Below, piece after piece: positions 14,376 through 53,047 of a DNA stretch of 64,000 bases. The notes under the pieces are model-generated. The model did no database searches and had not been told where the DNA came from. It worked only from the letters and a program-made list of their open reading frames with translations. The DNA comes from Diphasiastrum complanatum (taxonomy: Eukaryota > Streptophyta > Lycopodiopsida > Lycopodiales > Lycopodiaceae). How positions within the stretch are numbered: position 1 is the first letter of the stretch; each line of letters opens with the position of its first letter. The position numbers and the translations under genes were made by a program. Location: positions 48,952,933 to 49,016,932 of the forward strand of contig CM055104.1 in the NCBI GenBank assembly GCA_029204225.1, written 5' to 3'.

Positions 14376-15781
14376 TTATAATGTCATTGTTGTTGTCACA
14401 TTGCGAGCCATGATTCGAGCATGATCGTGCTCACCCTCGTAGGTAATTATCAGCATGGATGGATCGTCCAATGATCTCTCCACATGCTTCCTGGCACGAC
14501 ACCCTCTCATGGTGCTGCATTTGTAGTAACCCCTGAAGATCATGGCATAAACTTGGTGTTAGGATTTTGCTGGGAAAATTTGCTATGGATTCTGGATGAT
14601 TATAAGCATCATATGCAGCAGCACAAACAAATGTCAGACAATGCTGTATTGAATGCGATGGTTTACATACCTGGGATGGGGAGATCCTTTGATTGGCTTT
14701 TGCCCATATTTTCGCCATGAGTATTCGTCTGGTGGTATATCTGCTAGCTTGTTGCTGATTGCAGGCACTCTGATCGTCCTTTTGATTCTCAACTTCCTGC
14801 TAAGACGAAATAATGAAAAGAATGGTAAGGAATCAATTGTCAGGTAGAACAGTGCAACTAAGGATATTAATAACACACCGCAAGGAAGTTATGGTGATAC
14901 ACTGCGGAGCACAGATGTACACACATCACATTGACACATCATAAACCTCTATGCTTCTAGAGGTTACAGCATGCTCCATTTACAAATGGGTTACGCAATT
15001 TATCAGACGTTTCTTACTTGCGTTTAGAGCAATGGCATCTTCCGAGGCTTCCACACTTCCCGCTCATGTCTTCAACGTTGCCTAAGCATTTCTTCTTGAC
15101 TGATGATGATGTACGAGGCCAGAGTGGTGGAAGAGGCTGATGAAATGTGGAGGGCTTATCACTGGCAAGGCTACCATCGGCGCTCAAGGAAGACACGAAT
15201 GACCTAGATGCAGAGTGAGAGGGTACGCAGCTGGTAGAATATTCAAGAGTTCGGCCTAGTTTTCCTCCAACGATGCCGTTTGGGAAAATTTGAAAGTTTC
15301 TATACTGCTGTTGCAATTGTTGAAAAGCTGCAAGCTCAGCGGCACCAACGTTTGTTCCCGACGACAAACTTCTTTGGAATGGCATAAGCCGCCATGTTTG
15401 CTGTAACTGAGCAAACTCAGAAATAGGAGCAGGGGCGGATGGATTCGTATGGACCGAGGGACTCCGTGAATTGATTTGGAAGCGATCGATGGGTTCTGTG
15501 AAAGAAGATGAAAGTCCTGCCAAAGAAGAGTTTTGGGATCCCTTCGGTCCTTTGCGAAATCTTGCGTGTCCGTTTCTGCTTAGCAGGGAGACAACCTTTC
15601 TGAAATTGCTAATGGCTTGAACCGCATCGGAACTGTAGTCGTGCTGCAAATGGTGCTGATGTTGCTGCTGTGAAAGAATATGCAGAAACTGATGTGCATT
15701 TTCCAAGCCACTCCGCAAAGCCTCCTGGAGCTCATGGCCTCTATCGATCACGTCTGGACGAACATGAACAGCGACGTCCAT
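14376..15781 (-). CDS. WRKY transcription factor, group IId (three exons)
   Basis: A sequence-specific nuclear transcription factor that binds W-box DNA (TTGAC[CT]). Minus-strand exons are 15781-15018, 14796-14671 and 14532-14376, giving 348 residues. Introns are 221 and 138 bp with GT..AG ends (donors GTAAGA and GTATGT). The second splits the Arg codon just after the WRKY heptapeptide region, the conserved WRKY intron position. Domains in order: a basic HARF/C-motif region with [10 protein letters not shown] and GHARFRKG (calmodulin-binding type in group IId), a Ser-rich middle, a plant zinc cluster with GRCHCSKR and [17 protein letters not shown], and a C-X5-C-X23-H-X-H finger. All zinc ligands are present. 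One oddity is CRARKHVER where CPARKHVER is usual. I chose the Met at 15781 ([10 protein letters not shown]) because the extra N-terminal residues from an in-frame Met at 15811 are hydrophobic and atypical. Relatives are Arabidopsis WRKY7/11/15/17/21/39/74; orthology cannot be set from this window. Confidence 0.93.
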
Positions 15782-15856
15782 AATGAAAATAAGGCAACAA
15801 AATGGCTCCAAGTTTTGCGATCTTCAACAGGATTTGCAGGTGCTTGCACCTGCGCA

Positions 15857-27451: not shown

Positions 27452-28655
27452 CTATTTTACTAGCGGCAGGTCATAGTACTGTTTCTCCATAACTTCGTAG
27501 CTGACAGGATCGTCGTTGACCGTTATCCTGCTCTCATCAAATCTGACATCTCTCACTGTTTTCACAATGTTCGTGTCTGGCATGTAGATTCTGTAGTATG
27601 ATGAATTGTTGTCATAGCCTACCAGAAATCCCTGCTCGGGTTTCTCATCAAGCTTCTTTTGAAGCTTATCAGGAATATGTGCATAAGCTGCACAACCAAA
27701 GATTCTGACGTGAGACAGATTGGGCTTTCTACCCCACCATAGCTCATGTGGTGTCATGTGAGGAACACCAAACTTGCCTGTTCGGTTCTGGATGTATGCG
27801 GCTGTAGCTACTACTTCAGCCCACAATACCCTTGGAGCTTTCGAGTAGGCCATCATGCATCTGGCTGCTTCCATCAGGGTCCTATTCTTTATCTCAGCAA
27901 CACCATTGTGCTATAGTGTGTAGGCTGCAATTCTTCTATGAATGATGCCACGATCATTGCAAAAGTCAGTGAATCGATTCGAGATGTATTTGCTACCTCG
28001 ATCTATCCTGATCTGCTTAACCCTGTTGCCTGTACATCTTTCAGCCCAATTCACATATTTTGTGAATTTATCGAGTGGTTCATATTTATTCTGAATAAAG
28101 TACGCTCTGGAAAATTTGCTATAGTCATCAATGAAGGTTATATAATATTTTGAACCTCCTACTGAGATCACATTGAATGGTCCGCAGATGTTAGAATGCA
28201 CTAACTCTAGAATCTTGGTCATTCTGTAGGAGTCTTTGATGAATGTAGTGTGTGACATCTTGCCCTTCAAACATGCATCACAGGTGGTCGAACTGGTTGC
28301 ATTCAAGATGCTGACCCCTGTTATCACTCCATGATGGCTTGCCTGGTAAAGTGCCATTGAGTTCATGTGGCAAAGTCTTTTGTGCCACAGAGTGTCTGGC
28401 GAGTCATCATGAGTTTGATGCACCTGATCTGCAGGTAGGCATACCTTCAGATGATATAGGTTTCCTTTCCTTCTGCCTTGAGCGATCAAAGTACTAGTAC
28501 TGGCGTCAATCACGTTGCATGCTTCGTCAGAAAACATCACGTGCATCCTTGCATCTGCTATTCTTGCTACAGAGAGCAAGTCTTGTTGCAGAGTAGGCAC
28601 GAATAGAACGTCTTCGAGTCACCTGTCTCTGCTGTTGCTATTGAGCCATAGTGCG
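27452..28655 (-). pseudogene. Copia family C protease end and integrase
   Basis: The minus-strand frame at 28600-27911 starts in the pre-integrase region (LQQDLLSVARIADARM) and carries the HHCC zinc domain (LWHKRLCHMNS...CDACLKGK). The core follows, but the first catalytic position reads VHSN instead of VHSD, and the usual GGEY reads GSKY. A stop, then 27874-27452, gives the C-terminal core and tail (LWAEVVATAAYIQNR, VRIFGCAAYAHIPD, FLVGYDNNSSYY). Homology to the second family C copy continues to ~28655 (a degraded LNSNSRD.LED segment) and then stops abruptly. The element is therefore truncated at its 5' side, and gag is missing. Confidence 0.82.
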
Positions 28656-50383: not shown

Positions 50384-51143
50384 CTAGTTGACAATTTTCA
50401 CACTCGGAAGTGAATTCCAGACATATCTTGGGGGTTGATCCATATAGACCTCTTCGTCTAGGTCACCATGCAAGAAGGTTGTCTTCTCGTTCACAATATG
50501 GATCATGAGGTCATAAGCTGCTACATATGCAAATAATAGACGTAGGGATGAATGTTTGATGACAAGAGAGATGGTTTCAGAGTAGTCAATACCATATCTA
50601 TGAGAGAATCCCTTTACTACCAGTCTCGCCTTGTACTTTGAGACATTTCCATCTGGTCCATACTTGAGTTTGAAAACCCATTTGCATTTGACAGTCTTGC
50701 GCTTATGTGGTAATGGCTGCAACATCCATACTTGGTTCTTCCTCATGGACTCCATATCTTCGTTCATGGCTTGGATCCATCTGTCCTTCTCTAAACATTC
50801 AATCACCTCCTCAAAAGTCTATGGTTTGCCACTGAATCTGCAGAACTCTTCTGATGTGAAAGTTGAGCTGCCTGGCACATATCTTGCTGGCACTCTTCGT
50901 GGTCTTGTTGATCTTCTAGGAGATCCTCCTAGGACAACAATGCCTTTGCCTTTGTCTGCTCTGCTAGGTCCGAAATCATCCCGGTTTACAGAAACTATAG
51001 TAGTAGGCTACCTCTCGAATCTTTTGTCTTCAGATTCGTCACTCAAATAGGAAACGACTCAAAAATCTTCATTTTCGTGTTCGTTCTCTGCTCCCTCTGT
51101 CACTTGCGGTAGGTCATAGTACTATCTCTCTAGAACTTCATAG
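50384..51143 (-). pseudogene. Copia family C copy 2: linker and RT start
   Basis: Minus-strand frame 50806-50384 reads KDRWIQAMNEDMESMRKNQV, KWVFKLKYGPDGNVSKYKAR, VVKGFSHRYGIDYSETISL, SSLRLLFAYVAAYDL and DEEVYMDQPPRYV. It is cut off at about 50405, before the YVDD motif. A linker continues rightwards in broken frames to the palindromic insertion. It matches the family C copy at 26340-27310. Confidence 0.85.
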
Positions 51144-51148
51144 CTGAC

Positions 51149-51470
51149 TGTGAAGATGTGTATTTATTAAACAACGAATATACATCCGAATGAAGCAATA
51201 TATATTCACATAAGAAAAATATAGGCAGGTCCCTTCATTATAAATGTATCCAGCTCTTGTCTTCTTATGTGAATATATATTGCTTCATTCGGATGTATGT
51301 GTATTTATTAAACAACGAATATACATCCGAATGAAGCAATATATATTCACATAAGAAGACAAGAGCTGGATACATTTATAATGAAGGGACCTGCCTATAT
51401 TTTTCTTATGTGAATATATATTGCTTCATTCGGATGTATATTCGTTGTTTAATAAATACACATCTTCACA
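51149..51470. mobile_element. Palindromic insertion element, 322 bp, with 5-bp target duplication
   Basis: Two 150-bp arms (51149-51298 and 51321-51470) are perfect reverse complements by eye, around a 22-bp spacer that is itself a copy of part of the outer arm. Within each arm a 37-bp motif (51180-51216 / 51262-51298) is also inverted, so the motif occurs four times in alternating orientation. Ends are TGTGAAG..CTTCACA, and CTGAC flanks both sides (51144-51148, 51471-51475). The related element at ~27,500 has the uninterrupted site. TG..CA ends and 5-bp duplication point to integrase-mediated insertion, as for LTR elements or TRIMs. No coding capacity. The transcript would form a long hairpin. 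Confidence 0.9.
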
Positions 51471-52175
51471 CTGACAGGATTGTCATTGGCCATTGTCCCG
51501 CTCTCATCAAATCTGACATCTCTCACTGTTTGCACAACATCCATGTCTGGCATGTATACTCTGTAGTATGACAAATTGTTGTCATAACCCACCAAAAATC
51601 CCTGCTCGGCATTCTCATCAAGCTTCTTCCTAAGCTTATCAGAAATATGTGCATAAGCTGCACAACCAAAGATTCTGACATGAGACAGGTTCAGCTTTCT
51701 ACCCCACCATAACTCATGTGGTGTCATGTGAGGGACACCAGACTTTCCTGTCCTTTTCTAAATGTATGTGGCTGTAGCTATTGCTTCAGCCCACAATACT
51801 CTTGGAGCCTTTGAGTAGGCCATCATGCATCTAGCTGCTTCCATCAGGGTATTCTTTTGTTCTGCAACACCTGTGCTGTGGTGTGTAGGTTGCAGTCCTT
51901 CTGTGAATGATTCCATGATCATTACAGAGGTCAATGAAGTGATTCGAGATGTATTCGCCACCTTGATCTGTCCTAATCTGCTTCACTTTGTTGCTTGTAC
52001 ATCTCTCGGCCCAGTTCACATATTCTGTGAGTTTATCAAGTGCTTCAGATTTATTCTGAATAAAATACACTTTGACAAATTTGCTATAACCATCAATGAA
52101 GGTTATATAATATTTTAAACCTCCTATTGAGATCACATTGAAAGACCCACAGATGTCAGAATGCACTAATTCCAA
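51471..52175 (-). pseudogene. Copia family C copy 2: integrase
   Basis: Minus strand. The core frame at 52175-51831 has MELVHSDICGSFNV, TFIDGYSKFVKVYFI and RTDQGGEYISN. After a frameshift, the third catalytic residue follows at about 51880 (GVAEQKN). The C-terminal parts at 51961-51758 and 51727 leftward have MEAARCMMAYSKAPRVLWAE, VRIFGCAAYAHISD and FLVGYDNNLSYY. Unlike the copy at 28 kb, the first Asp and the GGEY motif are intact here. Confidence 0.85.
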
Positions 52176-53047
52176 AATCTTGGTCGTTCTGTAGGAGTCT
52201 TTGATGAATGGAGTGCGTGACCTTCAAACATGCATCATAGGTGGTCGAACTGATTGCATTCGAGATGCTGACCCATGTTATTGCTCCATGATGGCTTGTT
52301 TGGTAAAGTGCCATAGAGTTCATGTGGCAGAGTCTCATGTGCCACAGAGTGTCTGGCGAGTCATCATGAGTCTGATGCACCTGATCTGCAGGTAGGCATA
52401 CCTTTAGATGATATAGATTACCTTTTCTTCTGCCTTGAGTGATCAAAGTACTGGTACTGGCGTCAACCACGTTGCATGCTTCGTCAGAAAATGTCACACG
52501 CATTTTTGCATTTGCTATTCTTGCCACAGAAAGCAAGTCTTGTTGTAGTGTAGGCACGAACAGAACATCTTCGAGTCGTCTGTCTCTGCCATTGGTGTTG
52601 AGCCAAAGTGAACGAATACCATTCACTTGATGTTTAGATCCATCTCCAAGAACTATGAATCTGGAGGGATCGGCACTTCTGAAATCAGACATGATTCATC
52701 TTGATATCACGAAGTGTGAGGTGGCTCTCAAATCTAGGATCACTTCGTGTGTGTCAAATGTTGATGCTGCACACACATCTTCACAAATGTAGGTGGTCGA
52801 ATAATTTTTGTTCGATCTTTCCTCACCCATTTTTGAGCTCTCAAGCTCCTCGACATAGGATAAATTGTTGCTGTTCTCTTGTTTGTTCTGCGCTAATTTG
52901 TTTTTTAGGTTCTGTCCATAGTTGCATGACCTTCTTGTGACAGTGGATACACTCAATCTTTGGATTGAGCCAACATGTATCAACCGTGTGCCCATCTCGT
53001 CTGCATCTCATGCAAGTCTTCTTTTCTCCACCACGTTGTTTTGACAT
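52156..53047 (-). pseudogene. Copia family C copy 2: zinc knuckle, protease, pre-integrase
   Basis: Minus strand. Gag C-terminus at 53047: CMRCRRDGHTVDTCW (a CCHC-type knuckle) followed by ECIHCHKK. Protease at about 52750: VILDLRATSHFV, where the catalytic DSGA reads DLRA, so it is inactive. Pre-integrase 52692-52156: FIVLGDGSKHQVNGIRS, LEDVLFVPTLQQDLLSVAR, DTLWHMRLCHMNSMALYQ. Part of the second zinc pair is disrupted by a frameshift near CDACLKGK. Confidence 0.83.

Follow-up and report, generated by a model that had tools for sequence, protein, structure and literature searches.

The 322-bp palindrome in the 64,000-nt stretch of Diphasiastrum complanatum DNA analysed here (the window) very probably arose through faulty reverse transcription of a Ty3/gypsy-type LTR retrotransposon that was active recently, and was integrated as a cDNA with two U3 ends. 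Both outer ends of the insert (51149-51470) are the same LTR end, U3 nt 1, which in ordinary LTR elements stands at the left end only; the one U3 and one U5 end of an ordinary insertion were thus not found. Three further insertions of the same U3-U3 kind were located elsewhere in the genome.

Anatomy of the palindrome and its target site

The two arms (51149-51298 and 51321-51470) are 150 bp each and 100% reverse-complementary. When the insert was compared with its own reverse complement, 12 positions differed, every one of them inside the 22-bp spacer, whose sequence is found again at 51158 and, in the opposite orientation, at 51440. There are also four copies of a 37-bp unit, with orientations that alternate. 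The near-perfect palindrome with nested motifs, as described in the initial annotation, was thereby confirmed in all its parts. The whole insert can be written as a recipe from the first 113 bp of U3 (+1 to 68, -113 to -32, +10 to 113, -68 to -1), which accounts for all 322 bp; the segments and the joins between them, among these J1 and J2, are listed in Table 1. Applied to 25 LTRs (27 LTR loci minus L012 and L017, whose U3 end is altered), the recipe rebuilt the insert with 0/322 mismatches from 24 of them. In the wider set it was mismatch-free from 43 of 103 sites, the rest differing at 2-8 bases and one at 50. This agreement with present-day LTRs is a sign of youth, and the insert is probably young. 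Its recent age had been proposed from the undiverged arms; arm identity alone is a weak sign of age, because copied arms start identical.

In the native U3, no inverted repeat longer than 7 bp was present in the first 130 nt, and the folding of one stretch was nothing unusual (z -0.02). Folded as RNA, the insert was predicted to reach -255.5 kcal/mol, against -51.1 kcal/mol for native U3, and since this predicted fold is far more stable, a role of the insert as a small-RNA source is possible.

The target is a copia relic with a sister copy in the same window. The target-site duplication (TSD) is exactly 5 bp, CTGAC on both flanks, and the sister copy (identity 86.8% on one side and 83.6% on the other) carries CTGAC only once and without an insertion, as had been claimed for the empty site near 27,500. 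Palindromes are prone to misassembly and this insert is known from the assembly alone, so that an assembly artefact had to be considered; we regard it as extremely improbable in view of the 5-bp TSD, the known empty site, the exact LTR termini and the three more insertions built by the same logic. No further copies of the insert were present in the window, where nothing beyond short matches (13-16 bp, E 0.7) was found, and a search of the window for Rfam families (gathering score) and tRNAs gave none. An open frame on the minus strand of the window (15014-15823) has a sub-threshold match to Plant_zn_clust (E 0.0095) and may be an exon belonging to a WRKY group IId gene.

Table 1. Parts of the palindromic insert and its target in the window, and the other U3-U3 insertions in the genome
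Feature	Position	Strand	Length	Basis or sequence detail
Left TSD, CTGAC	51144..51148	.		Sequence read
U3 nt 1-68 of gypsy-type LTR, sense; begins at U3 nt 1	51149..51216	+		Exact rebuild
U3 nt 113 to 32, antisense; J1 with 3-bp microhomology GAA	51217..51298	-		Rebuild; J1 pattern only here
U3 nt 10-113, sense; J2 with 2-bp microhomology AT	51299..51402	+		Rebuild
Palindrome centre, U3 nt 10-31; putative uncopied loop	51299..51320	.	22 bp	Arm comparison, rebuild
U3 nt 68 to 1, antisense; mirrors first segment, with U3 nt 1 as outer end	51403..51470	-		Rebuild
Right TSD, CTGAC	51471..51475	.		Sequence read
Copia relic holding the insertion, extent as aligned to sister copy; target, not source	50407..52610	-		Alignment
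Empty site CTGAC in sister copia copy	27501..27505	.		Alignment
U3-U3 insertion on C22	3818410-3820618		2,209 bp	TSD CATCA; turn-back microhomology CGAAA
U3-U3 insertion on C20	19162934-19165936		3,003 bp	TSD ATGAT; turn-back microhomology CGAAAA
U3-U3 insertion on C9	41860343-41878710		18,368 bp	TSD GGCTT; turn-back microhomology TCAGTGAA

The source element and the question of a family

A search of the 1.74-Gb assembly with one arm gave at least 82 matches (with 40 of 198 candidates scored); across the second half of the arm many were 100% identical. The initial annotation had named many dispersed copies with the same ends as the mark of a new family; the matches were LTRs of 1,218 bp and not copies of the insert. 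Among the matches listed there were at least 11 same-orientation pairs, spaced 6.3-14.5 kb apart, five of them at 10.2-10.3 kb, and this commonest spacing together with the LTR length gives a commonest element length of about 11.5 kb. Seven of eight LTR pairs tested had a common 5-bp TSD and were 99.1-99.7% identical; the eighth, without a common TSD and 100 kb apart, is probably no true pair. Identities were 97.0-99.7% when the comparison was widened to 24 pairs, of which one or more are not true pairs.

A purine tract, GAGGAGGGGGATA (the polypurine tract, PPT), precedes TGTGAAG inside the element at all 13 loci read on that side. After the other LTR end there is a site matching the 3' tail of tRNA-Asp (PBS); of 12 loci read there, nine have it exactly, one has it with a single change, and it is absent in two. 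With the PPT on one side and the PBS after the other LTR end, TGTGAAG is U3 nt 1, and its reading as the U5 end was ruled out by the same positions. Pfam matches in one copy follow the order RVT_1, RT_RNaseH, Integrase_H2C2 and rve, which is the RT-RNaseH-integrase order of Ty3/gypsy pol. To judge from the sequence comparisons, the source is a Ty3/gypsy-type element elsewhere in the genome and not the surrounding copia. The proposal that the palindrome is LTR-derived, with TG..CA ends of the integrase type, agrees with these results, all 322 bp coming from U3 and both ends being U3 nt 1.

Downstream of pol, in L031:3026-5923, there is a 965-aa open frame with no Pfam match, at what we assume to be the position of the extra ORF in Athila-type elements. 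With its long extra ORF and tRNA-Asp PBS the source may be labelled Athila-like, which we take as a candidate lineage. Two LTRs of the same family (L005 and L007) have an inner flank without the tRNA-Asp-type site and possibly belong to a derivative which uses the same LTRs with another internal region. LTRs with a common outer flank occur at places 20-160 kb apart (L009/L010/L012 and L102/L103), which suggests segmental duplications that carried elements along.

The inverted arms, the TG..CA ends and the 5-bp TSD are what could be expected if the insert belonged to a trans-mobilised family of MITE, TRIM or foldback type. A search of the assembled genome for J1 at no more than one mismatch gave two matches, both of them the mirror places within this insert, and every base of the insert comes from one LTR end. 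The foldback family of the initial annotation therefore did not hold up, J1 being without the dispersed copies that a MITE or foldback family would have; a single copy genome-wide is also what the annotation itself had named as evidence contrary to its family. Its TRIM-like element was likewise rejected; the insert consists only of U3 pieces in alternating orientation, with no two direct LTRs, PBS or PPT. We give this group of explanations practically no credence. A Ginger-type MITE, considered from the TGT..ACA ends, was dropped after the LTR source was identified.

Further insertions with two U3 ends

The exact 27-bp start of U3 occurs 182 times in the genome, and positions were obtained for 100 of these occurrences. 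Sites were read in two rounds, 103 in the first (105 loci, of which L012 and L017 are without the key) and 18 together with two larger regions in the second. At 88 sites the U3 end is not preceded by the final A of the PPT; at another 18 it is preceded by A but not by TA, and among the latter at least L037 seems to be the start of an inner LTR whose PPT is altered. These two exact patterns define our 106 outer U3 ends; 24 of them (17 of the 88 and 7 of the 18) are known by position only. Among the 106 ends there were six adjacent convergent pairs within 30 kb, against 0.05 expected from a simple density estimate, and no divergent adjacent pair within the same distance. Four of the six are U3-U3 insertions with a TSD, namely the window insert and those on C22, C20 and C9. 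The other two represent one duplicated locus with an element nested in an element, and their flanks do not match. U3-U3 insertions thus make up 4 of at most 102 insertions with a listed outer U3 end.

The insertions on C22, C20 and C9 have U3 nt 1 at both ends, an exact 5-bp duplication and a single turn-back each, at microhomologies of 5-8 bp. On C22 the plus strand runs from U3 through the LTR and the PBS to about 2.09 kb, and on C20 to about 2.89 kb; both turn back to U3 nt 117. The turn-back site at U3 112-117 is common to these two and the window insert. A special stop at this place was considered and set aside for a simpler explanation, as it is the only TTTCG in the LTR examined. On C9, measured along another copy, the plus strand reaches about 7.5 kb before turning to about 4.5 kb. 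A stretch matching pol lies between the two U3 ends. This insertion has a surplus of about 6.3 kb between LTR and pol (C9:41860343-41870964), probably a later nested insertion, as suggested by the shifted position of pol. Each of the four U3-U3 insertions has its own junction, which suggests independent accidents and not the copying of a single element.

All four have TG..CA ends and a TSD of exactly 5 bp, as in LTR integration, and in all four U3 nt 1 stands directly against the second copy of the TSD. The last observation bears on the possibility that ordinary insertions were rearranged after integration, through template switching in replication or repair of chromosomal breaks. Truncated LTRs do exist in the source family (L068 and L100, see below), one of them with filler; such a rearrangement would leave a U5 end beside the TSD or destroy the TSD, and we consider it highly improbable.

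Another alternative is that a host polymerase (Pol theta, for example) joined two truncated cDNAs tail to tail at a microhomology before their integration. Joining by polymerase theta is characterised by microhomology and templated filler, and the microhomologies of 2-8 bp, as well as the templated filler of L068, resemble its products. In the window insert, however, the composite junction is present twice in mirror image, which needs self-copying. The arms on C9 are mutual best matches among the LTRs compared, at 98.8%, as expected if they were identical at insertion, with small margins to the next best (98.5% and 98.6%). On C20 the arms agree across the first 117 bp, and on C22 they differ at one base, position 116; the identity of these two pairs is no proof of self-copying, because the chance that two copies share a U3 haplotype is 0.16 (120 sites, 34 haplotypes). 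Self-copying is most secure for the window insert, where J1 occurs twice in mirror image, and on the whole we regard end-joining by a host polymerase as unlikely compared with the integration of an aberrant reverse-transcription product.

Joining of any cDNA ends, if that were the cause, would also be expected to make U5-U5 insertions. None was found among 55 outer U5 ends, with no outward-facing pair within 30 kb and the nearest 346 kb apart. The control covers one exact U5 variant, and its list is about half the length of the U3 list. Given this lower sampling, the probability that chance alone makes all four events U3-U3 is 0.19, and the excess of U3-U3 over U5-U5 is a trend only, the control being weak because U5 ends are sampled less.

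Three other loci were set apart from the four. L068 (C4:1265517-1267417) consists of U3 1-913 followed by a 31-bp inverted stretch which begins with a 7-bp match; where it joins the target there is no 5-bp duplication, but one of 29 bp (as judged by eye) together with an additional partial repeat. We treat it as a one-ended relative of the U3-U3 insertions, not counted as one of them. Its surroundings appear by eye to be a copia relic. L100 (C9:61175966-61177866) is a U3 fragment, nt 1-941, with an exact ACCTT repeat on each side. It could have come from insertion of a truncated cDNA or from a deletion that ended at the TSD, and it was dropped as a member of the class since deletion at a 2-bp match would yield the same structure. 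L103 was also dropped; its flank is shared with the full LTR L102, and it seems to be a copy that suffered a deletion within a duplicated segment.

Proposed origin and relation to known systems

In the mechanism that we propose, plus-strand DNA would be primed at the PPT and would start at U3 nt 1. Its 3' end would then switch strand at a microhomology of a few bases, through self-folding or through transfer to another plus-sense template, and would copy back to U3 nt 1. Two such switches would have taken place in the window insert, J1 first and then J2, a snap-back with a 22-nt loop in which the strand ending at -10 would turn on itself and copy itself to its own 5' end. One snap-back would give both the second and the third join, and by copying J1 in mirror image it would make the 150-bp arms perfect. 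The second strand would be made through repeated priming at the PPT, and because PPT priming sets U3 nt 1, plus-strand starts would come to lie at both ends of the molecule. The resulting linear DNA, with a U3 terminus at both ends, would be inserted by integrase in the same way as U3/U5 cDNA, duplicating 5 bp. We thus infer that reverse transcriptase switched strands before integration, that the PPT primed repeatedly and that integrase was the enzyme.

Parts of this mechanism have counterparts in the literature. A Ty3 review notes apparent repeated priming at the PPT for both Ty3 and Ty1 (PMC5371799). Minus strong-stop DNA of HIV-1 undergoes TAR-dependent self-priming of the nascent cDNA, as stated in the relevant passages of PMC4668388; the likeness is that nascent cDNA folds back and primes on itself. 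The retroviral product, as presented in the same passages, is minus strong-stop, abortive and reduced by nucleocapsid protein, whereas here the plus strand from U3 would be concerned and the product was integrated. Integrases insert two mimics of LTR ends in vitro, as indicated in the portions of PMC11054761 and PMC6705210 considered here, and such concerted integration likewise brings two ends of the same kind into a target. Our cases differ in being insertions in a plant genome, with both ends on one linear molecule and both of them U3. The integrases of HIV-1, SIV and HTLV-1 prefer U5 ends over U3 in vitro, to go by the relevant part of PMC6705210, so that the use of two U3 ends is not favoured by these enzymes, which counts against our proposal.

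Solo and truncated LTRs are also made of LTR sequence, often with a flanking 5-bp TSD; in a solo LTR, however, a U3 end is paired with a U5 end, unlike the two U3 ends of the present insertions. Ginger and TDD-4/5 combine a gypsy-type integrase, TGTNR ends and TIRs, TDD-4/5 with 5-bp TSDs, as described in the passages of PMC2836005 cited here. They are DNA-transposon families, whereas the U3-U3 insertions look like single events of an LTR retrotransposon, and the window insert, with no second copy of its junction and consisting of U3 only, without pol, does not belong to Ginger2/TDD. The insertion on C9, with its pol-matching stretch between two U3 ends, resembles Ginger in outline, as far as the cited part of PMC2836005 describes it; that such a form moves as a Ginger-like transposon is speculation. 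In the titles and abstract openings of the open-access literature searched, no U3-U3 or fold-back LTR insertions were described, which leaves their absence in print unproven. The components are known separately, and integrated U3-U3 fold-back forms as a recurring class seem undescribed in that literature.

Taken by itself, the window insert would be no more than a curiosity; the insertions on C22, C20 and C9 add weight to it, and together they suggest that the source element repeatedly inserts DNA with the same end on both sides. They would be integrated records of an apparent plus-strand fold-back during reverse transcription, and they indicate that, in the living plant, a pair of U3 ends can serve as substrate for the integrase of a plant retrotransposon. 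For annotation they are a warning that an inverted repeat which ends in TG..CA and is flanked by a 5-bp duplication may be a by-product of LTR elements and not a DNA transposon. A wider idea, which we put forward tentatively and hold to be doubtful, is that DNA with inverted U3 ends is both made and integrated on a regular basis by gypsy-type LTR retrotransposons, as a direct structural route to Ginger-like transposons and a source of single-copy 'MITEs'. If this were true, a turned-back piece including pol, as on C9, would have the anatomy of an integrase-encoding TIR transposon, and single-copy 'MITEs' with 5-bp duplications could arise from inverted-U3-end DNA. The link between LTR retrotransposons and integrase-type TIR transposons becomes testable through counts of such forms across genomes.
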